From a virus, in IMG/VR virus record IMGVR_UViG_3300042991_000126, positions 1 through 20,122 of that record: a stretch of DNA of 20,122 nucleotides, one strand, 5' to 3'. The position numbers and the translations under genes were made by a program. Shown in pieces: positions 3,406 through 19,633 of this stretch; position 1 is the stretch's first letter, and each line of letters begins with the position of its first letter. A model generated the notes under the pieces. It made no database searches. It was not told where the DNA came from and saw only the letters and a program-made list of their open reading frames with translations.

Positions 3406-3774
3406 TTAAATTTCCTCCCTCAAATGGATTGTGCCGGAATACATTTCGTGCGCGACCCCTTTGAGGGGGTTGCGCGTATCGAGCAGGCGGACGGTGTGGG
3501 CGGCGCCGGACTCGTCGGTGTATGTAAATGTGTTCAGCGGTCCCACGGCAATGTTCAGCAACCAGTCGGAAAAATTGTTGAAATCCGCCTGCGGAAGCCT
3601 GTCGAAGGAGAGGTTAATGAACTGCTCCTCGATGCCCTTGTCATAGGCGTAGAGCTGCCCGCCTTCGCTGTAATCGACGGGGACATTCACCTGGCCGGGG
3701 TCATCGAGGGGGTAGGCGCGCCCCTTTGAAAACGTGAATGTATCCACTCCTTTGGCAAATATGATGTTAGGCAT
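3406..3774 (-). CDS. Distal tail (Dit / minor tail M-like) protein, 122 aa
   Basis: This 122-residue protein overlaps the end of the tape measure gene by 8 bp and precedes the hub, the place of lambda M/L-type or Dit-type adaptor genes. The sequence is beta-rich: FTFSKGRAYPL near the N-terminus, a DKG-EEQFINLSF strand, a DW motif in NFSDWLLNIAVGP, and FTYTDESG...HTVRLLD toward the end. The last two features recur in phage minor tail proteins that describe a strand with FTY-D-G followed by VRL. It likely joins the tail tube end to the hub. Family identity is inferred from order and these weak motifs. Confidence 0.7.
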   Translation of the reverse strand: MPNIIFAKGVDTFTFSKGRAYPLDDPGQVNVPVDYSEGGQLYAYDKGIEEQFINLSFDRLPQADFNNFSDWLLNIAVGPLNTFTYTDESGAAHTVRLLDTRNPLKGVAHEMYSGTIHLREEI

Positions 3775-6343
3775 GCAACTTCTCCAATTCGGGGACTATG
3801 TATTGCCGGGCAATCTCCCGCCAGTCTTCCGCGCGCTGCGGGGCTGCGGATTCAGGAATGTTGATCACAATATCGCCGATCTGGACGGTACGTGCATCGG
3901 ATCGACCGACGGCGCCCTGGGGGCTGCTTCCCGACAGGCTGGCCCGCTGACGGATCTGCCTGGATTGCTCCTCGGGGATGACGATCTCGCCCTCGTGGAG
4001 ACGGTAGAGGCCGGTGCGCGGAACGTAGTCTGTGCCCGACGCATAGCCGGGCAGATTCAATTTTGCCGCAGAATAAATGCTGTTATAAATATCAGAAGAT
4101 GTGGAAGACGCTCCACCCCCGTCGCCGATGGCATGATAGACCGTGGTGATGTGGATGGTTTTGTCGTGCAGGCCGGCCAGAGACCGGGAAATGTCGTTCA
4201 CCACCCAGGAGACCTGGTCGTCGCCAGTGATGGTGATGACCTTCTGCATCGCTGTTATGCGCGCTTCCAGTTCGGAGATAACGCCCTGGATTTCGTTAAT
4301 GGCCGATACAGCCTGATTGGCGGACTGCTGCAGGGCGAGGCCCATATTCCTGTCCGCCTCGATTTGCTGCTGCTTCTCAACCTCCAATTCGTCCATCGCC
4401 CGCATCTGCATCGAGGTGGCCTGCTCGATGTCGGCAATCACCGAGTCGATGATTTCCTTGCCCGTCGCGATCACCGACGTCTGCGAGCCGGTGATGATGT
4501 TCTCGGTGACTTCGTTTACGCCCTGAGACCATGTCTGGCCGAACGAAACCAGCGCCTGCTTGTACTCATCCAGCGCCTTGACCTGCTCCTGCCCGGAGAG
4601 GCGCATCGCCGAGACATACTGATCTGTCAGCGCGGTCTTCTGGGATTCGTACTTCTGCGTCGGCGACATGCCGATTTCCTGCAGGCTGCGTATCTGATCT
4701 GCCGTCGTCTTGCGGATGTCGGCCTGCTGGCGGTACAGGGCGTTCAGCTCTTCAACGTGTTTTTTTTCCGTTTCGGCATTTTTCTCAATCATGCCCTGCA
4801 GGTCGCTGTAATATTTCTCGGCGGCCGACAGACGCGATTCCAATGCCTTTTTGTCCTGTTCTGCGATTTTCAGCGCCGCCGCGGCTTCTGCAGCCACAGT
4901 CTCCGTACTGGACTCCTGAACATTGCGCAGCCCCGTCTCGGCGTCAGCCACAACCTTTTCGACGCCCGCGGACGCCTTCGCCTGGATGCCAGCCATCGTG
5001 GCGTCAAATCCAGCCCAGAAGTTTCGCATGAAATCGGAGGCGGACCCGGTATCGGCAGAGCCCGCGGCGCCCGCGGCCCGTTCGGGATTCTCCTGGTCAA
5101 ACTCCCGCAGGTAATCGGCCAGTTCCGATCCGTTCATCCCGGCGAACTCACCGAATCCCATCTGGCCGGAGGCGATCAGACCTAAACCTGCCGCCTGGTT
5201 GCGCACCATCTGGATCGCCTTGACGGCGGCCGCCAGCGCAAAGGCCCCTTTTTTCCCGTAAATGAACGCCCCGATAAGCCCGGCATCGCGGATCCATTCG
5301 GGAAACGACGTGAATGCACCCCAGAGGCTCGACACCTCGGCCGCTATCCTGGGGACATATTCCATCACGGAATCGTAAATACCCGCGGCGGAAAGGGTGA
5401 TCCTCTTGAATGCGGCGACCACCCGCGTGGAGACGTCCTCCGCCCATTTCTGGAACGATCCGTCGGCGACCATTTGGGCTATTTTATCATTGACGGACGT
5501 CAGGCCCGCCTCGATGGTCCGCATGACGCCGGAATCCATGACGAGGCGCTGAAACTCCTTCCAGTAACCCTCCATCGCCTCCCAGAGGCCGGAGAATTTT
5601 TTCTGTATCTTATCGGATTGACCGCCGAATCGCTCGGCCAGGCCCTCCATGACCGCCTTGATGATCGCGCCGGAGCTGACCGACTGGTTGCCGATATCCT
5701 GTATCTGCGCGCCGGTCAGCCCCAGTTTTTCTTTGAGAATTTCGAATACCGGGACGCCCCGCTCGGCCAACTGCATCAACTCCTCGGCGCTGCCCTTGCC
5801 CTTCGCCTGGATCTGCCCCAGCGCCCGGGCAATGCCCTCCAGCGTGTCCGCCTGGCCGCCCAGCGCGGAGGTCGCATCGACCAGCGTCGTCATGTCGGCG
5901 ATCGACGGCTGCAAACCCATCGCCCGCATCATGATGAAGGATTGAATGGCCTTTTCGGTGTTGATCGGCATGGTCATCGCCCAATCATTCAACTTTTTAA
6001 ACCACGCCTCGCCATTGCCTTTGGTGATCGTATCGAGCGACAATTTCATTTTATCCATCGATGCGCCGGTCGAGATAAACGAACCGGCGAGACGCTCCAC
6101 GCCCCAGCCGACAAGCGCCGCCGCCGCCGCCGTTTTCAGGCTGACGACCCTGTTTTTCACGCCCTCGATCGCCCCGCCGAGGTTCTTCGTGAAGCTCTGC
6201 GAGAGCCCCTGAACATGCCCGGCTGAGCCGGACGACATTTTACGCACCTGGTCGGTCAGCGTCGAAGAAAACTGCGTCACCTTCGCGGAGCCGCGGTCAT
6301 CGACGTCGAGTATCAGTTGGATTGTATTGGAAGCGCCCATCAT
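3767..6343 (-). CDS. Tail tape measure protein, 858 aa
   Basis: Long helical protein with the typical tape measure layout. The N-terminus reads IQLILDVDDRGSAKVTQF, followed by Ala-rich hydrophobic segments (about 60-90 and 360-390) and the conserved region around MRAMGLQPSIADMTTLVDA and AEELMQLAERGVPVFEIL, which match the common tape-measure N-terminal domain. A coiled-coil stretch with many E, K, Q lies at about 470-680. Near the C-terminus is GYASGTDYVPRTGLYRLHEG followed by EIVIPEE, a signature of siphophage tape measures. At about 0.15 nm per residue the tail would be near 130 nm. Two tandem ATGs are possible: 6343 and 6340; GAGG lies only 3 nt before the first, so 6340 may be used. It overlaps the distal tail gene by 8 bp. 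Confidence 0.95.
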   Translation of the reverse strand: MMGASNTIQLILDVDDRGSAKVTQFSSTLTDQVRKMSSGSAGHVQGLSQSFTKNLGGAIEGVKNRVVSLKTAAAAALVGWGVERLAGSFISTGASMDKMKLSLDTITKGNGEAWFKKLNDWAMTMPINTEKAIQSFIMMRAMGLQPSIADMTTLVDATSALGGQADTLEGIARALGQIQAKGKGSAEELMQLAERGVPVFEILKEKLGLTGAQIQDIGNQSVSSGAIIKAVMEGLAERFGGQSDKIQKKFSGLWEAMEGYWKEFQRLVMDSGVMRTIEAGLTSVNDKIAQMVADGSFQKWAEDVSTRVVAAFKRITLSAAGIYDSVMEYVPRIAAEVSSLWGAFTSFPEWIRDAGLIGAFIYGKKGAFALAAAVKAIQMVRNQAAGLGLIASGQMGFGEFAGMNGSELADYLREFDQENPERAAGAAGSADTGSASDFMRNFWAGFDATMAGIQAKASAGVEKVVADAETGLRNVQESSTETVAAEAAAALKIAEQDKKALESRLSAAEKYYSDLQGMIEKNAETEKKHVEELNALYRQQADIRKTTADQIRSLQEIGMSPTQKYESQKTALTDQYVSAMRLSGQEQVKALDEYKQALVSFGQTWSQGVNEVTENIITGSQTSVIATGKEIIDSVIADIEQATSMQMRAMDELEVEKQQQIEADRNMGLALQQSANQAVSAINEIQGVISELEARITAMQKVITITGDDQVSWVVNDISRSLAGLHDKTIHITTVYHAIGDGGGASSTSSDIYNSIYSAAKLNLPGYASGTDYVPRTGLYRLHEGEIVIPEEQSRQIRQRASLSGSSPQGAVGRSDARTVQIGDIVINIPESAAPQRAEDWREIARQYIVPELEKLHA

Positions 6344-6359: not shown

Positions 6360-6689
6360 TCAGGCCGGCAGTCCCCACGTCGCTATTGCCACGGCTGACA
6401 GATCGAGCGGGACGGGATCATGCGCGATCTGCGTCAGGCCGTCGGCGTCCGTGGTCTCGGCGTCGATGTACTGCCGCTCGGGGACGGTCAGCTCCGCGAC
6501 CTGCCAGTAGTGGTTCGCCCGTGCATCGGTCGAATATCTCCGGTCGGCGTCGAGCCATATCCGGACGGTCTGGCCGGCCTGCGGCTCGAGATCGATGGTC
6601 TGTTTCGCCACCCGCCCTAAGGCGCAATCAAACGCGGCGACCTGGAGCAGGGCGCCCGACACTGTGATTTTCGGTAATTTTGCAGTCAT
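6360..6689 (-). CDS. Conserved-looking small tail-region protein (109 aa)
   Basis: I place the start at ATG 6689 because AAAGGAGG lies 7 nt upstream; an in-frame ATG at 6713 would overlap the stop of the previous gene and has no better site. The 109-residue product is beta-rich with KITVSGALLQVAAFD, a TVRIWLDADRRYS segment and HYWQVAELTVPERQYI. It shows no signal peptide or membrane segment. It sits between the 97-aa gene and the tape measure, where lambda has only the G/GT pair followed by H, so it is an extra tail gene. I do not recognise a family. It may decorate the tube or help assembly. Confidence 0.75.
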   Translation of the reverse strand: MTAKLPKITVSGALLQVAAFDCALGRVAKQTIDLEPQAGQTVRIWLDADRRYSTDARANHYWQVAELTVPERQYIDAETTDADGLTQIAHDPVPLDLSAVAIATWGLPA

Positions 6690-6705
6690 TTCATTGCCTC
6701 CTTTC

Positions 6706-6999
6706 TTATGCATGCGGGATGATCGTGTAATCGAATGCGCTCACCGCAGAGCCGCTGTTGTAGATCACCACCGTATTGGCCGCCTTAACAACCCAGACCT
6801 CCCCCAGGAGCCCCCCGGCGTCGGCCGCCGGGTTAATGACGACCTGGTAGTTGGTATGGCCGTAATTGTGGGTGATCGTCCGACCGGCCGACGAACCGGC
6901 AAACGTGCTGGCTATCGGCTTCAGGTCCTCGTCCTGCGTCAATTTTGAGAGATTCGTCACGTCCACCGGCGTTGTTGCAACCCATGTCAATCGTGCCAT
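6706..6999 (-). CDS. Small beta-rich phage protein with tail-fiber-like C-terminal pattern (97 aa)
   Basis: The ATG at 6999 follows AAAAGGAGG with 6 nt spacing. The protein has the run ITHNYGHTNYQVVINP, then GEVWVVKAANTVVIYNSGSA and a final FDYTII. This order (a T-x-Y-x-V-x-I strand, a G-E-x-W-V strand, then NSGSA and an F-x-Y/W-x-I strand) is one I associate with small beta-sandwich domains at the ends of phage fiber or decoration proteins. Here it stands alone as its own gene between the tail chaperone and the tape measure. Function is unproven; a tail decoration protein is one option. Confidence 0.75.
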   Translation of the reverse strand: MARLTWVATTPVDVTNLSKLTQDEDLKPIASTFAGSSAGRTITHNYGHTNYQVVINPAADAGGLLGEVWVVKAANTVVIYNSGSAVSAFDYTIIPHA

Positions 7000-7015: not shown

Positions 7016-7656
7016 CTATTGCCCCTGCTGCCGCTGGGCCTCGTCCCATTCCGCGATCACGGATGCAATGATGGTCATTTTCTCAAGGATGTCTTCCGCA
7101 TCCGTGCTGGTCAGCGTGAGATTCATCAGCCGAAATACCGTTTCCGCACCCAAAAAATGAACCTTCTGGTAGAGCGTGTATGCCTGGTCATTCTCCGGGA
7201 GCAGTTCCACCGCCCCGGTGGGGCAAATCCCTTTCTCGTCGCACGGCGGATCGCGGTCATCTTCCTCGTACCGGGCCCGGCACGCCAGACAGGAATCGCG
7301 GTGCGCCAGCTCCCAGGAGAGGAAGTCCCTCAGTTTTTTTCGGCGTCCTCATCCGTCTGATCCTCGCCTGTTCCGCCCAGTAAATTCACAAGTTCCGTCA
7401 ACACCTCTTCGGGCAGTTTCAGCGCCAGCTCGTCCGAATACGGAACGGCGGCGCCCTTCACCTGGACATTCTCCCAGCCGATGATGCCGGCGGTAATGAG
7501 TTCGGCTGTGACGGCGCTCCAGTCGCTTTTCCCTCGCTTCGTGTTTTTCCGCACGATGGCCGCGCGGCGGGCTGTCGATATGCGGCGGTAGAATATTTTG
7601 GAGCCCGCGTTTTCGTAGGTGAATTTCTCGTCGTCCTGGATGATCTGTATCGGCAT
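7016..7656 (-). CDS. Tail assembly chaperone GT-type fusion made by -1 ribosomal frameshift (213 aa)
   Basis: The 108-codon upstream ORF ends ...GAA AAA AAC TGA. The heptamer A AAA AAC (7339-7333) is a classic -1 slippery site, and shifting there opens a frame with no stop for 105 further codons to TAG at 7016. The extension starts LRDFLSWELAHRDSCLAC and continues through a Cys set (C-x2-C-x12-C-x5-C) to LLPENDQAYTLYQKV. The alternative, independent start at GTG 7210, would drop the Cys-rich 41 residues and has no clear ribosome binding site, although the frame is open and looks coding across that part. The arrangement upstream of the tape measure copies lambda G/GT. The T-like part is expected to bind tail tube subunits while the G part coats the tape measure. 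The four cysteines suggest metal binding. Confidence 0.8.
7330..7656 (-). CDS. Tail assembly chaperone G-type, unshifted product (108 aa)
   Basis: This is the zero-frame product of the G/GT pair. The ATG at 7656 follows AAAAAGGAG with good spacing, 18 nt after the stop of the second tail tube gene. The protein starts MPIQIIQDDEKFTYENAGS, has RRISTARRAAIVRKNTKRG (basic, as for a region dealing with tape measure helices), DWSAVTAELITAGIIGWENV and LKLPEEVLTELVNLL near the end, followed by an acidic tail DQTDEDAEKN. Size and position, directly after tail tube genes and before the tape measure, match siphophage G-type chaperones. The gene ends at TGA 7330-7332 immediately after the slippery AAC codon. 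Confidence 0.85.
   Translation of the reverse strand: MPIQIIQDDEKFTYENAGSKIFYRRISTARRAAIVRKNTKRGKSDWSAVTAELITAGIIGWENVQVKGAAVPYSDELALKLPEEVLTELVNLLGGTGEDQTDEDAEKN
7333..7339 (-). promoter_or_regulatory. -1 programmed frameshift slippery heptamer A AAA AAC
   Basis: On the minus strand the codons GAA AAA AAC TGA contain the X XXY YYZ heptamer A AAA AAC, set in the correct zero frame and ending directly at the stop codon of the G-type gene. The -1 frame downstream is open for 105 codons. Seven A residues in a row occur here. A possible short stimulatory hairpin exists just downstream (for example CTCC-TG-GGAG, or GAGG-gactt-CCTC), but both are weak and I did not fold the region. Confidence 0.8.
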
Positions 7657-7674
7657 TTCTCTTTCTCCTTTTTA

Positions 7675-8802
7675 TTATGATATCATCGGGTTGGTTGATA
7701 AATCGTTCTGAATCTGGATCAGCATCTCCTGCGTTGCCTGGCTGGGGAACCCGGCGGCCAGGCCGGTCGGAAGCTCCGCGGTGAATGTGCAGACAAGCGG
7801 CATCATGCCCGGCCCGCTGATCGGGGCCTTGCTCTGGTCAAATTTGATGGTCGGCAGCCATATCCAGAGTGTGTGGTCGTATCCCGTCGAGCCTATTTCC
7901 GCGCCGCTGAACCGCAGCATCGCCATTTTGGCCGTCTGACTGTTGAGATCGTCCAAAAAATCGTCCGCCTCATAGCGGGGAATGGTAAAGGAGCCGGTCA
8001 CGACGCGCTTGCCTGTGCGGCGCGGCTCGGCGATGTAGAGGCCAGACAGGCTGTCCCGCTCGATCGCCAGCTTGTTGTCGAGCTTGATCTCAAACGTATT
8101 GACGCCGATCGCGTCTGCCTGACTGAGGGCCGCCCCGGTGGAATAGTCGGCAATCCACAGTTCCATGTCTTGGAACAGCGCCGAGAGCCAGTCTGCGCCG
8201 GGTATGTCCCACGCGGCCGAGGATGTGTTGACAGCAGACGCCCGGTCGAGGCCGTACGGAACCAGATCGAGCGAAATCCTGACGCCTTTGGAGTCGCCCT
8301 TGATGGTCATGGCCTGCACCATCGCGGAGGCGTACTCCCAGATGGAGACCGACTTATCGATGCAGAGCGTTCCGCGCCGAACTTTCTGGTCGCCCGCGAG
8401 AAGCCCCGATCCGGCCAGAACCCCGTCGCCCGCAGCCCACGGCTCGGCGTGCAGATTCCCGGCCAGCTCGATGGCGTGTTTATAGACGCCCGCGGCTACC
8501 GTCTCCGGAGACGCGGAATATGAACAGAATCCGCAGGCAGAGGCCAGAATGGATTCGATGCCGCGATATACGGCGTCAATCTCCACCGACCCCTGCACGC
8601 CCCGGCCTGTGACGTCCGCGGCCCCGGCGCCCGCCTGGTTGCGGATGGTGTTGTCGGGCTCCTTTTCGAGATCAGCCGCCAGCGACTCCGTGACGAGCGG
8701 GATCTGGTCGCCCGAGCCGCAGACGATCGGCGTGCCGTGATCCGACTGGACGCCCTCTCGCGCCCATGCAGTTATCGAACTGAATCCGGCTCCCTGTGTC
8801 AT
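7675..8802 (-). CDS. Tail tube protein, second paralog (375 aa)
   Basis: This protein aligns by eye with the 334-aa product encoded just upstream. Shared landmarks are a Phe-Ser/Glu N-terminal opening, SIWEYASAMVQAMTIKGDS (against VWEYAGNKIDTLKISGE), RASAVNTSSA (against LASAVNTSG), and a segment EPRRTGKRVVTGSFTIPRYE (against EPQRNGFRSVKFNFTVPRYE), followed by a PTIKFDQSKAPISGPGM strand matching PKIKIDKADAAIGGPGL. That pattern is typical of the siphophage tail tube family I know as Phage_tube_2. The ATG at 8802 follows GGGGAAGGAG. A repeat element with hairpin and G-tract potential lies immediately upstream. It could be a major tube subunit, a minor one with an added domain, or a tail terminus piece. 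Confidence 0.85.
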   Translation of the reverse strand: MTQGAGFSSITAWAREGVQSDHGTPIVCGSGDQIPLVTESLAADLEKEPDNTIRNQAGAGAADVTGRGVQGSVEIDAVYRGIESILASACGFCSYSASPETVAAGVYKHAIELAGNLHAEPWAAGDGVLAGSGLLAGDQKVRRGTLCIDKSVSIWEYASAMVQAMTIKGDSKGVRISLDLVPYGLDRASAVNTSSAAWDIPGADWLSALFQDMELWIADYSTGAALSQADAIGVNTFEIKLDNKLAIERDSLSGLYIAEPRRTGKRVVTGSFTIPRYEADDFLDDLNSQTAKMAMLRFSGAEIGSTGYDHTLWIWLPTIKFDQSKAPISGPGMMPLVCTFTAELPTGLAAGFPSQATQEMLIQIQNDLSTNPMIS

Positions 8803-8817
8803 ATTTTCTCCTTCCCC

Positions 8818-8897
8818 TATTTCTTTTGTTTAAGGGGCAAAAACCCCATCCCCACCCCAACCCTCCCCTTGAAGGGGAGGGAGGTTTTCGAATCCCC
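8818..8897 (-). repeat. Intergenic repeat element, copy A (hairpin + G-tracts)
   Basis: About 80 bp nearly identical to 12011-12088, in the same orientation. On the plus strand it has CCCTCCCCTT-GA-AAGGGGAGGG symmetry (a 10-bp stem around 8861-8880) and a GGGG-CAAAAA-CCCC stem at about 8834-8847. On the transcribed minus strand it shows GGGG-A-GGG-TT-GGGG-T-GGGG-AT-GGGG tracts, a possible RNA G-quadruplex. It fills the whole spacer between the two tail tube genes, ending 11 nt from the stop at 8909 and 15 nt from the next ATG. No U-run follows the stem, so it is not a typical intrinsic terminator. Confidence 0.85.
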
Positions 8898-8908
8898 GGC
8901 CCGGTGGG

Positions 8909-9913
8909 TTAAGCCAGCGGCGATGTGGCGGTCGCGTTGGTTACAGCGATTTCAATTTCGTCGGTCAGCGTAAAGGACGCGGACACGCTCCCGGGATCGC
9001 GGTAGCACGTACACTGGATTTTCTGCTGAATCAGCCCCGGGCCGCCGATTGCTGCGTCCGCCTTGTCGATCTTGATCTTCGGCAGGTGGATGGAAAACGA
9101 GTAGCTGCCGGACGTAAACGTCAGCGACGCATGCAGGGCGGTGTCCGCATCCCGCCAGCCCAGATACGTGTCTGCCTCGTAACGGGGCACCGTGAAGTTG
9201 AACTTCACGCTCCGGAATCCGTTGCGCTGCGGCTCCAGGATGGTCAATGCGCGGTTGTCAAAATCGTCCAGTTTCAGGCCGTTGGCGAGCGTCACGTCAA
9301 ACTGGCTGATGCCGGATTCGGACGCGCCGGAAAGCGCTGTTGCCTGCGCGGCAATCTTGAATTCGAGGTCCGAAAACATGATTTTGGAGGCGACATCTTC
9401 CGTATCGAGGGCCAGCAGGACGCCGGACGTGTTGACCGCGGATGCCAGACTTAAAGTCTTCGCGACGCCGCCGACCTCGAAATCAAGCGGCTTGTTGGCC
9501 TCGCCCGATATCTTCAACGTGTCGATTTTGTTTCCCGCATACTCCCAGACGGAGACGCCCTTGTACACCGCCGCCGTGTAGCTGTACGACAGGTTCTGCG
9601 CCGTGGAGTAGAGGCCGTCATAGAGACTGCCGTTTATCGTGGGCGCGGCTGCCGCGCCGAGGGCAACCGCGATCAGCAGGTCGAGATCGCCGTATGTCAT
9701 TTTGCCGGGTATGGTGAACGGGTATGATTTATTCCCGGCGATGCTCGCGCCCTGCCCGGCCTTCCCGCGCAATACCTCATCTGCGTGTTTTTCCAGATCG
9801 TTTCCGAAATTCTCGGACACGAACGGGATGGCCTTTGTCACGGCTATCGCCGTGCCGTAGGCTGCCTCCTTTTTTATCCCCAGAATGCCTTCAAATCCTT
9901 TGCCGATTGTCAT
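8909..9913 (-). CDS. Tail tube protein, first paralog (334 aa)
   Basis: The ATG at 9913 follows AGGAGG with 8 nt spacing. The N-terminus (MTIGKGFEGILGIKKEAAYG followed by TA) matches the opening common in siphophage tail tube proteins, followed by FVSENFGNDLEKHADEVLRG, an IPGKMTYGDLDLL strand and VWEYAGNKIDTLKISGE. The C-terminal half has EPQRNGFRSVKFNFTVPRYE and LPKIKIDKADAAIGGPGL. No sheath gene is near, so the tail is expected to be long and non-contractile. The 375-aa neighbour is a diverged copy of this gene. Which one forms the bulk of the tube cannot be told from sequence. Confidence 0.88.
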   Translation of the reverse strand: MTIGKGFEGILGIKKEAAYGTAIAVTKAIPFVSENFGNDLEKHADEVLRGKAGQGASIAGNKSYPFTIPGKMTYGDLDLLIAVALGAAAAPTINGSLYDGLYSTAQNLSYSYTAAVYKGVSVWEYAGNKIDTLKISGEANKPLDFEVGGVAKTLSLASAVNTSGVLLALDTEDVASKIMFSDLEFKIAAQATALSGASESGISQFDVTLANGLKLDDFDNRALTILEPQRNGFRSVKFNFTVPRYEADTYLGWRDADTALHASLTFTSGSYSFSIHLPKIKIDKADAAIGGPGLIQQKIQCTCYRDPGSVSASFTLTDEIEIAVTNATATSPLA

Positions 9914-11997: not shown

Positions 11998-12010
11998 GTT
12001 GATCCTCCTT

Positions 12011-12127
12011 TATTTCTTTTGTTTAAGGGGCAAAAAACCCATCCCCACCCCAACCCTCCCCTTGAAGGGGAGGGAGGTTTTCGAACCCCCAACCCTCCCC
12101 TTGAAGGGGAAGGAGGTTTTCGAACCC
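12011..12127 (-). repeat. Intergenic repeat element, copy B with extra half unit
   Basis: Bases 12011-12088 repeat the 8818-8897 element with about three differences (a C-to-A change in the GGGGCAAAAA...CCCC part and small changes at the end). A second partial unit follows at about 12089-12127, including another CCCTCCCCTT-GA-AAGGGGAAGG stem and the same TTTTCGAA end. The element ends 10 nt before the stop of the decoration gene (12138) and begins 13 nt before the capsid ATG, so it fills the whole spacer. G-tracts on the transcribed strand could form a quadruplex in the 5' leader of the capsid gene. Confidence 0.88.
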
Positions 12128-12137
12128 CTCGCGCCGG

Positions 12138-17561: not shown

Positions 17562-18377
17562 TCACACTTCTTTTGCCGCGACGGATGGGGCAAGCCCCAG
17601 CGCTGTCATTGACGGCGTTATAGATGCGGCTATCGCTGCCATCGGCGCCGCAGCCGAAGCTAAAAGCGCAGGCGTGGCGGACAGGGCTGCCATTGACGGC
17701 GCAACGGCGGTTGCGGAGGCTTGCATGATGCCGATGTCTCGCGCCAGCACAGCGGAAAGGTTTCCGCCGCCGGAGACGACGACAACTGCCGCCGACGTTG
17801 CCTTCGACGCCTCGGCGAGAAGACATCCCGCACCTGAAATGACGGCTGCCCCGGAGTGGCTTTCCTCCCCGTTTGCGCCCGCAGCGCTGACGGATCCGCC
17901 GCCTGAGACGACAACCGCTGAGGCTGCTGCCATGTGCCCCGAGGCCGTAAGCGCCCCGGAGCCGGAGATTGCGACGATGTTTGCGGCTGCCTTCCCTCCG
18001 CAGGCGACCAGAGACCCGCTCGCGGAGACAAACGCCGTGCCCGAATGCCCTGATTCGCCGGTTGCGGACAGCGACCCGCTCAAGGAGATTACAGATGTGC
18101 CTCGGGCGCCCTTTTCTCCGGAAGCGGCGAGCGCCCCGGAGCCAGAGATGGACCCGATGCCGAGCATCGCGGCGACGCCCACGGCGACGAGCGCCCCGGA
18201 GCCGGAGATCAGCGCGGCGCCGGAATGGGACTCGCCGCCCGTCAGGGTGCGTGTCGCATGTTCCCAGACATCCCGGGCGATTTCCTCGGCCCTGTTTTGA
18301 GGCTCGCTGGGGACGCCTGCCAGAAGCGTCCTGGCGGCATATTCCCAGACTGCCTGCGCAATGCTTAATAGACTCAT
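17562..18377 (-). CDS. Fiber-like protein with eight 20-residue Ser/Gly repeats (271 aa)
   Basis: I choose ATG 18377, which overlaps the stop of the 419-aa gene (ATGA), rather than the longer frame at 18407. The N-terminus holds two copies of a VWEYATRTL-type motif (residues about 10-18 and 38-46). Residues 58-211 carry eight units on a SGSGALxAxG theme; the first six are spaced by exactly 20 residues (58, 78, 98, 118, 138, 158), the last two shifted by a few residues. Such periodic beta turns suggest a solenoid or beta-roll shaft. The last 60 residues are Ala/Ser/Pro-rich (SMAALSATPALLASAAAPMA). The gene lies just before the head block, so it may be a head or neck fiber. Confidence 0.8.
   Translation of the reverse strand: MSLLSIAQAVWEYAARTLLAGVPSEPQNRAEEIARDVWEHATRTLTGGESHSGAALISGSGALVAVGVAAMLGIGSISGSGALAASGEKGARGTSVISLSGSLSATGESGHSGTAFVSASGSLVACGGKAAANIVAISGSGALTASGHMAAASAVVVSGGGSVSAAGANGEESHSGAAVISGAGCLLAEASKATSAAVVVVSGGGNLSAVLARDIGIMQASATAVAPSMAALSATPALLASAAAPMAAIAASITPSMTALGLAPSVAAKEV
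17745..18206 (-). repeat. Tandem 60-bp coding repeats of the fiber-like gene
   Basis: The DNA encoding residues 58-211 of the 271-aa protein is made of about eight roughly 60-bp units, each containing a GCGCCCCGGAGCC-like core on the plus strand (for example near 18186-18206 and 18126-18150). Units keep the amino acid theme while the codons drift, so the array is old rather than a fresh duplication. Two later units are out of step with the 20-residue period. Confidence 0.75.
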
Positions 18378-19633
18378 GATGTTAAAGTCCTGTTGCCATA
18401 TTCCCACACCGCCTGCGCAATTTCCGCATCAGTAGGCTCCCCTGCCTCCTGGGTGAATTTGATGATGATGTCGGTATCGGCGTTGTTCGCCCAGCCGCGA
18501 TTAAAGACAGCCATCCCGGAGCCCTCGCGCAGAACATAGTCCTGCTCGTTTTTCGACGTGAAAATGACGTTGCGAAGCGGCAAGGGGCCCATCGCTACCC
18601 CAGGGCCAACCGTGGGTCCCCGCCCGTTCACCATCACTTTTATCGCGCTATTCATCGTGGCTCCGGCGGCGTAACCTTCCATGCGCACGTAACAATTTCC
18701 GCAGCAAAGCACGTTTTCATTCAGGGCATTCAGGGAATCCATCCCCGTGGGGACAATCTGCTCGCCGCAAATACCGGGGATCATGTCCTCGATATTCTCG
18801 ATGGTGTAAACAGGGCCGAGAGATGGCCCCTGTTCCGTAATCTCGATGCGAAGAATCTCGAACGGCGTGGCCCCTCCATTCATCACGCTGAACAGGGCTT
18901 CGGCCTCGCTGACAGCGATCATGTGCAGGCAGTAGCAGGCCCCGGTGGAGGAGTTCCGAATCCAGACGGAGATGTCGTATTCGAGGTTTATCGAGGCCGT
19001 CGCGGCTGTATGTACAGCGATTCCTTCTCCGGTGCGCATCACAATCTTTTGCTGGTCCGCGTGGCCTCCCCAGACGTAAAGCTGGGATAGCCCTAATTTA
19101 CGGTCCTGACTGGCGTTGAGGCCGCGTAAACTGGCGTAATCTGAAGGATACGGGTATAAGGAGTAACTCGACCCTACGGCGCTCCAGGCGTAATAGCTGT
19201 ATGGAAGCTGTCTGAACGCCAGGAGCTCCGCGCCGCTGGTTGTCACGGTTGAGCCTGCGACAAACGTAACGTCGGAGAGCGCCGCGCTCTGGGAGTCCAG
19301 GCTGGTCGCCGTTCCGTTCGCGGATCCTCCGGAGGCGGCGGTAATGCGGCTCAGCGTAAGTTTCGCCTGCAAGGATGCGGTTTTTGCCGGGGCAACAGGG
19401 CAAATCTCCACCTCGCGTATCCGGACGATCTGTCCCGATCCGCGCCGGTTGAAGATGCCGAGGAGGGCGACCGCCTCTAATTTTGCGTTATAGGGCGCGG
19501 GGATGGTCACGTTGGAAACGGAAGCGGCAGGGTTTGACAAAGCCTGCATGTTCTCGGCCGGCGGGCAAACCCAGGGCGCCCGCGTTGAGATTGCGCCGCC
19601 CCGTGTCCCTGTTCTTGCATGAAATGTTTCCAC
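18374..19633 (-). CDS. Beta-rich fiber/surface protein with two copies of a repeated domain (419 aa)
   Basis: The GTG start at 19633 is 3 nt after the stop of the 64-aa gene, in the same frame; GGGG lies about 9 nt upstream, a weak site, and the next internal ATG (residue 29) is a possible alternative. Two halves share landmarks: AVALLGIFNRRGSGQIVRIR (about 54-73) against EALFSVMNGGATPFEILRIE (245-264), and MRTGEGIAVHTAATAS (199-214) against LREGSGMAVFNRGWAN (368-383), each followed by a strand such as DIIIKFTQE. The end carries AQAVWEYGNRTLTS, the linker motif repeated in the next gene. No family recognised by name; the fold is likely beta-sandwich. Confidence 0.75.
   Translation of the reverse strand: METFHARTGTRGGAISTRAPWVCPPAENMQALSNPAASVSNVTIPAPYNAKLEAVALLGIFNRRGSGQIVRIREVEICPVAPAKTASLQAKLTLSRITAASGGSANGTATSLDSQSAALSDVTFVAGSTVTTSGAELLAFRQLPYSYYAWSAVGSSYSLYPYPSDYASLRGLNASQDRKLGLSQLYVWGGHADQQKIVMRTGEGIAVHTAATASINLEYDISVWIRNSSTGACYCLHMIAVSEAEALFSVMNGGATPFEILRIEITEQGPSLGPVYTIENIEDMIPGICGEQIVPTGMDSLNALNENVLCCGNCYVRMEGYAAGATMNSAIKVMVNGRGPTVGPGVAMGPLPLRNVIFTSKNEQDYVLREGSGMAVFNRGWANNADTDIIIKFTQEAGEPTDAEIAQAVWEYGNRTLTS

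Follow-up and report, generated by a model that had tools for sequence, protein, structure and literature searches.

The window analyzed here, by which we mean the whole 20,122-base stretch, a fragment from a virus record, carries a run of tail genes in the order tube-tube-G/GT-two small ORFs-tape measure. Pfam places two tandem tail-tube-like genes of the Phage_tube_2 family (PF18906) at 7675-8802 and 8909-9913 on the minus strand and a TMP_3 tape measure gene at 3767-6343; the two small ORFs that separate the tape measure from the G/GT region (6360-6713 and 6706-6999, minus strand) have weak PHROG matches only and belong to no Pfam family. Tail assembly chaperone pairs usually occupy this slot between tube and tape measure. 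The head genes of the window are of the Mu type (i.e., portal, PF06074; Mu F-like, PF04233; Mu I protease, PF10123; gpT head subunit, PF10124; and Mu Gp36, PF07030). The tandem tube genes represent a duplicated tail-tube protein, of which one copy is perhaps the tube protein and the other a minor one. A 90-nt repeat that looks noncoding and contains CCCTCCCCTTGAAGGGGAGGGAGG is found at 8813-8902, 12006-12095, and 12045-12134 (93% identity between the two places, plus a partial copy in tandem); it sits between the two tail-tube genes and beside the gpT-like head gene and resembles a dispersed repeat or a terminator-like element. Imperfect repeats of ~42 nt also occur at 17938-18219, inside a 281-aa ORF (17562-18407, minus strand) of Ser/Gly/Ala-rich repeats.

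Tailed phages are well known to make two tail assembly products from one gene by means of slipping ribosomes, and the G/GT region has the layout for it. G is read on the minus strand from an ATG at 7656, with a Shine-Dalgarno-like AGGAG on its 5' side (7665..7669), to 7330; it encodes 108 aa, and its last codons are GAC GCC GAA AAA AAC TGA. A slippery heptamer, A AAA AAC, thus lies in the zero frame of G at 7333..7339, and the TGA at 7330..7332 abuts its 3' side (a stop “intercodon”). The extension, T, is the -1 frame from the CTG at 7333, the last base of the heptamer, to 7019, with its own stop at 7018-7016 (7016..7333 in all, minus strand); its 105 residues begin LRDFLSWELAHRDSCLACRARYEEDDRDPPCDEKGICPTG and would bring the GT fusion to 213 aa. 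The -1 frame becomes open 16 nt before the end of the heptamer, and its first ATG, GTG, or TTG is the GTG at 7210, codon 42 of T, which lies past all four cysteines of a C-x2-C-x12-C-x5-C segment. An earlier note on this DNA had described the GAA AAA AAC TGA ending, the abutting stop, the 105 open codons beyond it, and the loss of the cysteine set from any product started at GTG 7210, and on each of these points our reading of the minus strand agrees.

Two lines of comparison bear on the identity of G. In the first, the solved structures that rank highest against the AF2 model of G (mean pLDDT, 80.5) are Bacillus YqbN (3KLU; Z, 6.8) and the HK97 tail assembly chaperone (2OB9; Z, 5.1), with unrelated rows at 2.5 or below and sequence identity to both chaperones of just 10 to 14%; a search of a viral model library returned tape measure and tail assembly chaperones at a probability of 1.00. 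The model lends moderate support to the view that G shares a fold with the solved chaperones YqbN and HK97. In the second, phrog_313 matches G weakly (E, 5.6e-4 for the G of the window and 3e-5 to 4e-3 for members of its family), and the G profile aligns with known chaperones of the phrog_313/8233 clan at 95.6% by hhalign over 32 columns, a match so short that it argues for a deep relation only. A Pfam search with G and T returned no family at E values up to 1, so there is no match to lambda gpG or gpT by sequence. T is a different case: its model (mean pLDDT, 77.8) retrieves unrelated weak matches only and no fold from the solved structures, and hhalign with known T parts gives an end-to-end alignment at a probability of 6.8%. 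DUF1799, tried as a relative of T, gave no match.

Conservation of the slip site and the T extension

The comparison set consists of 14 relatives, namely, 13 other distinct uncultured viral contigs and the isolate Sphingobium phage Lacusarx, and thus of 15 sites with the window. Lacusarx was reached through a weak tblastn lead, which opened the comparison with phrog_313/8233; apart from that lead, tblastn of the whole GT against isolated phages found no relatives, and none were confirmed in cultured genomes. The placement of Lacusarx G on phrog_8233 positions 20 to 139 and of its T on positions 141 to 261 is as would be expected of a GT fusion. Pairwise identity of G plus T among the sites runs from 73% down to about 20%, a range that sets aside a few Lacusarx alignments reading near zero.

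An in-frame X XXY YYZ heptamer stands at the G-T junction in 15 of 15 sites: A AAA AAC in 12 (the window included), A AAA AAT in L022, A AAT TTG in L015, and G GGA AAC in Lacusarx. The motif by itself says little, given that AAAAAAC occurs five times in the window against 1.6 expected, and the chance that synonymous codons for a given peptide spell a heptamer ranges from 0.01 to 0.47 per site, the sites being related rather than independent. What exceeds chance is that the heptamer is kept in frame at the same place, together with a conserved -1 frame extension, in all 15 sites. The earlier note had proposed an alignment of homologous G/GT regions as a check, and this is its outcome: the heptamer pattern and the -1 frame are both kept throughout, and the pattern named there as refuting, a lost heptamer combined with a second ORF that has its own start, appears at none of the 15 sites. 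A possible start codon lies near the slip point in three relatives (L010, GTG at codon -14; L022, TTG at codon 1; L015, TTG at codon 3), and all three retain the heptamer despite it.

T is conserved from the slip point onward, and most sites have no start codon near that point. Right after it, the alignment of relatives shows a conserved L-x-x-F-L-x-W, and farther on the four cysteines, arranged as two pairs, do not vary across 12 sequences. Within the second pair, the spacing is mostly x5, with x2 in L014, x7 in L004 and L027, and x4 in L015; such variation would be in keeping with metal-binding knuckles, and the segment may bind metal in the manner of a zinc ribbon.

The RNA 3' of the slip site also folds more than its coding content would require. 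We compared 75 nt, starting 5 nt past the heptamer, with recodings that preserve the -1 frame peptide: the mean folding z score over the 15 sites is -2.14, versus 0.18 and -0.41 for two control stretches inside T. Against 150 random in-frame segments per locus, the mean z is -2.12 versus -0.28 (resampled P, about 5e-6, with sites taken as independent). In the window, where z is about -3, the putative stimulatory structure spans 7253..7327 (minus strand), with CTTCCTC (7325-7319) predicted to pair with GAGGAAG (7267-7261) and to enclose an inner hairpin. The excess is absent in L037 and L039 and small in L022. A single conserved stem, either CTTCCTC/GAGGAAG or a hairpin over the Cys codons, was considered and set aside, with no convincing covariation and no helix common to all sites. 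Thus, a stimulating RNA structure 3' of the slip site is likely, though not as one conserved fold. An upstream Shine-Dalgarno-like stimulator likewise found no support: GAGGA-type motifs are frequent there, and they do not exceed in strength what synonymous recoding of the acidic linker gives (Fisher P, 0.46). In Lacusarx (L042), a very long, near-perfect hairpin at about 4202-4290 lies directly 3' of G GGA AAC TAA (z, about -4 versus synonymous recodings); the public annotation of that phage does not join the T frame to G.

Based on gene position, the conservation of the heptamer, an extension that mostly lacks a start of its own, the fold of G, and its homology to phrog_313/8233, we consider it very probable that the locus encodes a G/GT tail chaperone pair expressed by -1 programmed ribosomal frameshifting. 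We posit that most ribosomes would terminate at the TGA (7332-7330) and yield G, while a minority would slip one base back on A AAA AAC, read CTG in place of TGA, and yield GT, with the 3' RNA structure probably assisting the slip. By analogy with lambda, the tape measure protein would then be covered by many copies of G and few of GT, with T serving to recruit tail-tube subunits. The four cysteines conserved near the beginning of T probably coordinate a metal ion, which would fold the tube-binding end.

The adjoining stop and competing explanations

The position of the stop raises the issue of how the slip would occur. At 12 of the 15 sites (six TGA and six TAA; there is no abutting stop in L027, L028, and L035), nothing separates the heptamer from the zero-frame stop, versus 3.8 such sites expected given the -1 frame peptide and the codon usage of the locus concerned. 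The P value of this excess is 1.8e-6 if the sites are independent, 1.3e-5 if they are clustered at 70% identity, and 5.5e-4 at 60%; it is not significant (P, 0.26) once the clusters are drawn at 55% identity or below. The codon pairs that span the stop differ among sites (CTG AGG, CTA AGA, CTA AAG, CTG ACT, GTA AGA, and TTG AGG), a diversity that would favor selection for an adjacent stop, though weakly for the deepest comparison. According to published averages, phage chaperone sites have 26 and 36 nt between heptamer and stop (PMC10885494). Among 13 isolates of the clan, the distance is 0 in nine (Lacusarx, Kakheti25, KL1, CcrMagneto, CcrColossus, RcMotherGoose, XM05, R5C, and CcrPW), 3 nt in Xp15, Kikimora, and Vibrio phage 51E28.4, and 39 nt in Bordetella CN1.

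One mechanistic variant of -1 frameshifting, compatible with the reading above, is that the slip occurs mainly once translocation has brought the stop codon into the A site; slippage would then compete with release factor, whose level would influence the G:GT ratio. The adjacent stops, 12 versus 3.8 expected, would fit such a competition, as would an experiment in Escherichia coli in which an artificial stop was placed after the HIV slip site and overproduction of RF2 abolished slippage (PMC4373837). In the same system, however, a stop at that position lowered shifting (PMC4373837), and so the adjacent stop may merely mark the end of G. Moreover, L027, L028, and L035, as well as several isolates, are presumed to be functional without it, and the excess is lost under the deepest lumping. 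We therefore regard the variant as possible but tentative, and somewhat unlikely on balance. A wider proposal is more doubtful still, and we would expect it to fail: that, across the clan, the adjacent stop is part of the signal, such that competition between slippage and release factor would set chaperone stoichiometry according to the termination capacity of the host, and that T would carry an undescribed metal-binding module that recruits the tube.

Transcriptional slippage would dispense with a slipping ribosome altogether. Here, RNA polymerase would add or drop an A in a run of seven, and the resulting mRNA would fuse the T frame to G. An A7 run before C is indeed found in the window and in most close relatives. 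Yet the run is A6 in L014, L028, and L035 and is replaced by AAATTTG in L015 and GGGAAAC in Lacusarx, sequences with no long run and with an unchanged layout, and what is kept across the sites is the heptamer pattern of -1 ribosomal shifting. Because these relatives keep the layout, slippage by the polymerase is very unlikely.

We give even less weight to the idea that G and T are separate genes, with T initiating by itself, either by reinitiation near the stop or at GTG 7210. That GTG is in frame, and in L022 a TTG overlaps the heptamer and the stop; however, a start at GTG 7210 would drop codons 1 to 41, which hold the invariant W7 and the four cysteines, and retention of the heptamer would be needless. 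It is because the conserved beginning of T has no start codon before or near codon 1 in most relatives that separate initiation is improbable. Finally, the A7 run is a place where indels can occur, but an assembly error or a decayed gene that cut one ORF in two is excluded for practical purposes by the recurrence of the same layout in independent records, namely, 13 other contigs and the isolates, with different heptamers and stops.

Comparison with known chaperone pairs

Programmed -1 frameshifting of a chaperone pair remains our reading of the locus, and its closeness to described systems varies from feature to feature. In lambda, ribosomes reach T only by shifting to the -1 frame shortly before G ends (PMC5009743), and the pair in the window shares the gene position and, very probably, this mechanism, without a Pfam match by sequence. 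The claim of a lambda G/GT-type chaperone in the earlier note holds in the main: position, heptamer, extension, and fold all speak for a frameshifted chaperone, but the sequence relatives of G are phrog_313/8233 and not lambda gpG. The same note had pointed to the pairing of such a chaperone with a Mu-type head as worth a look, and this combination has already been described. The D3112-like Pseudomonas phages (MP42 and PaMx73) resemble the window in that they combine Mu-type head genes and a flexible tail with a chaperone pair that is frameshifted by -1 (PMC4378225; MP42 annotation); they differ in using T TTT TTC far before the stop (43 codons in PaMx73 and 108 nt in MP42) and in having a different T. 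The suggestion that the cysteine-rich T deserves attention has fared better. What is new here is that T opens with a four-cysteine segment, in a family represented by uncultured virus contigs alone, and the segment offers a concrete target for work on how T binds tail-tube subunits. The pair in the window likewise extends tail chaperone frameshifting to a family so far seen in nothing but uncultured viruses whose heads are of the Mu type.

The heptamer set directly before the stop is present in the window, as the earlier note had it, but this layout is not new. Given a distance of 0 in most clan isolates and the statement in the KL1 paper, it is typical of the phrog_313/8233 clan; for Burkholderia phage KL1 gp18/gp19, GGGAAAC is predicted immediately 5' of a TGA stop, with a stem-loop on the 3' side (PMC3483164). 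Its spread across much of a large chaperone clan provides a natural set for asking if -1 slippage competes with release factor in bacteria. KL1 resembles the window in the heptamer that abuts the stop, the 3' stem-loop, and the presence of an additional gene that separates GT from the tape measure (PMC3483164), and it differs in its G GGA AAC heptamer and in a T that lacks the Cys segment. Pseudomonas phage vB_Pae-Kakheti25 gp18/gp19 and Caulobacter phage CcrMagneto gp090/gp091 also have A AAA AAC directly before the stop, TAA in their case; both are annotated as a frameshift fusion, G ends at the stop, and the G profile is homologous to that of the window. Unlike the T of the window, theirs has no cysteine cluster.
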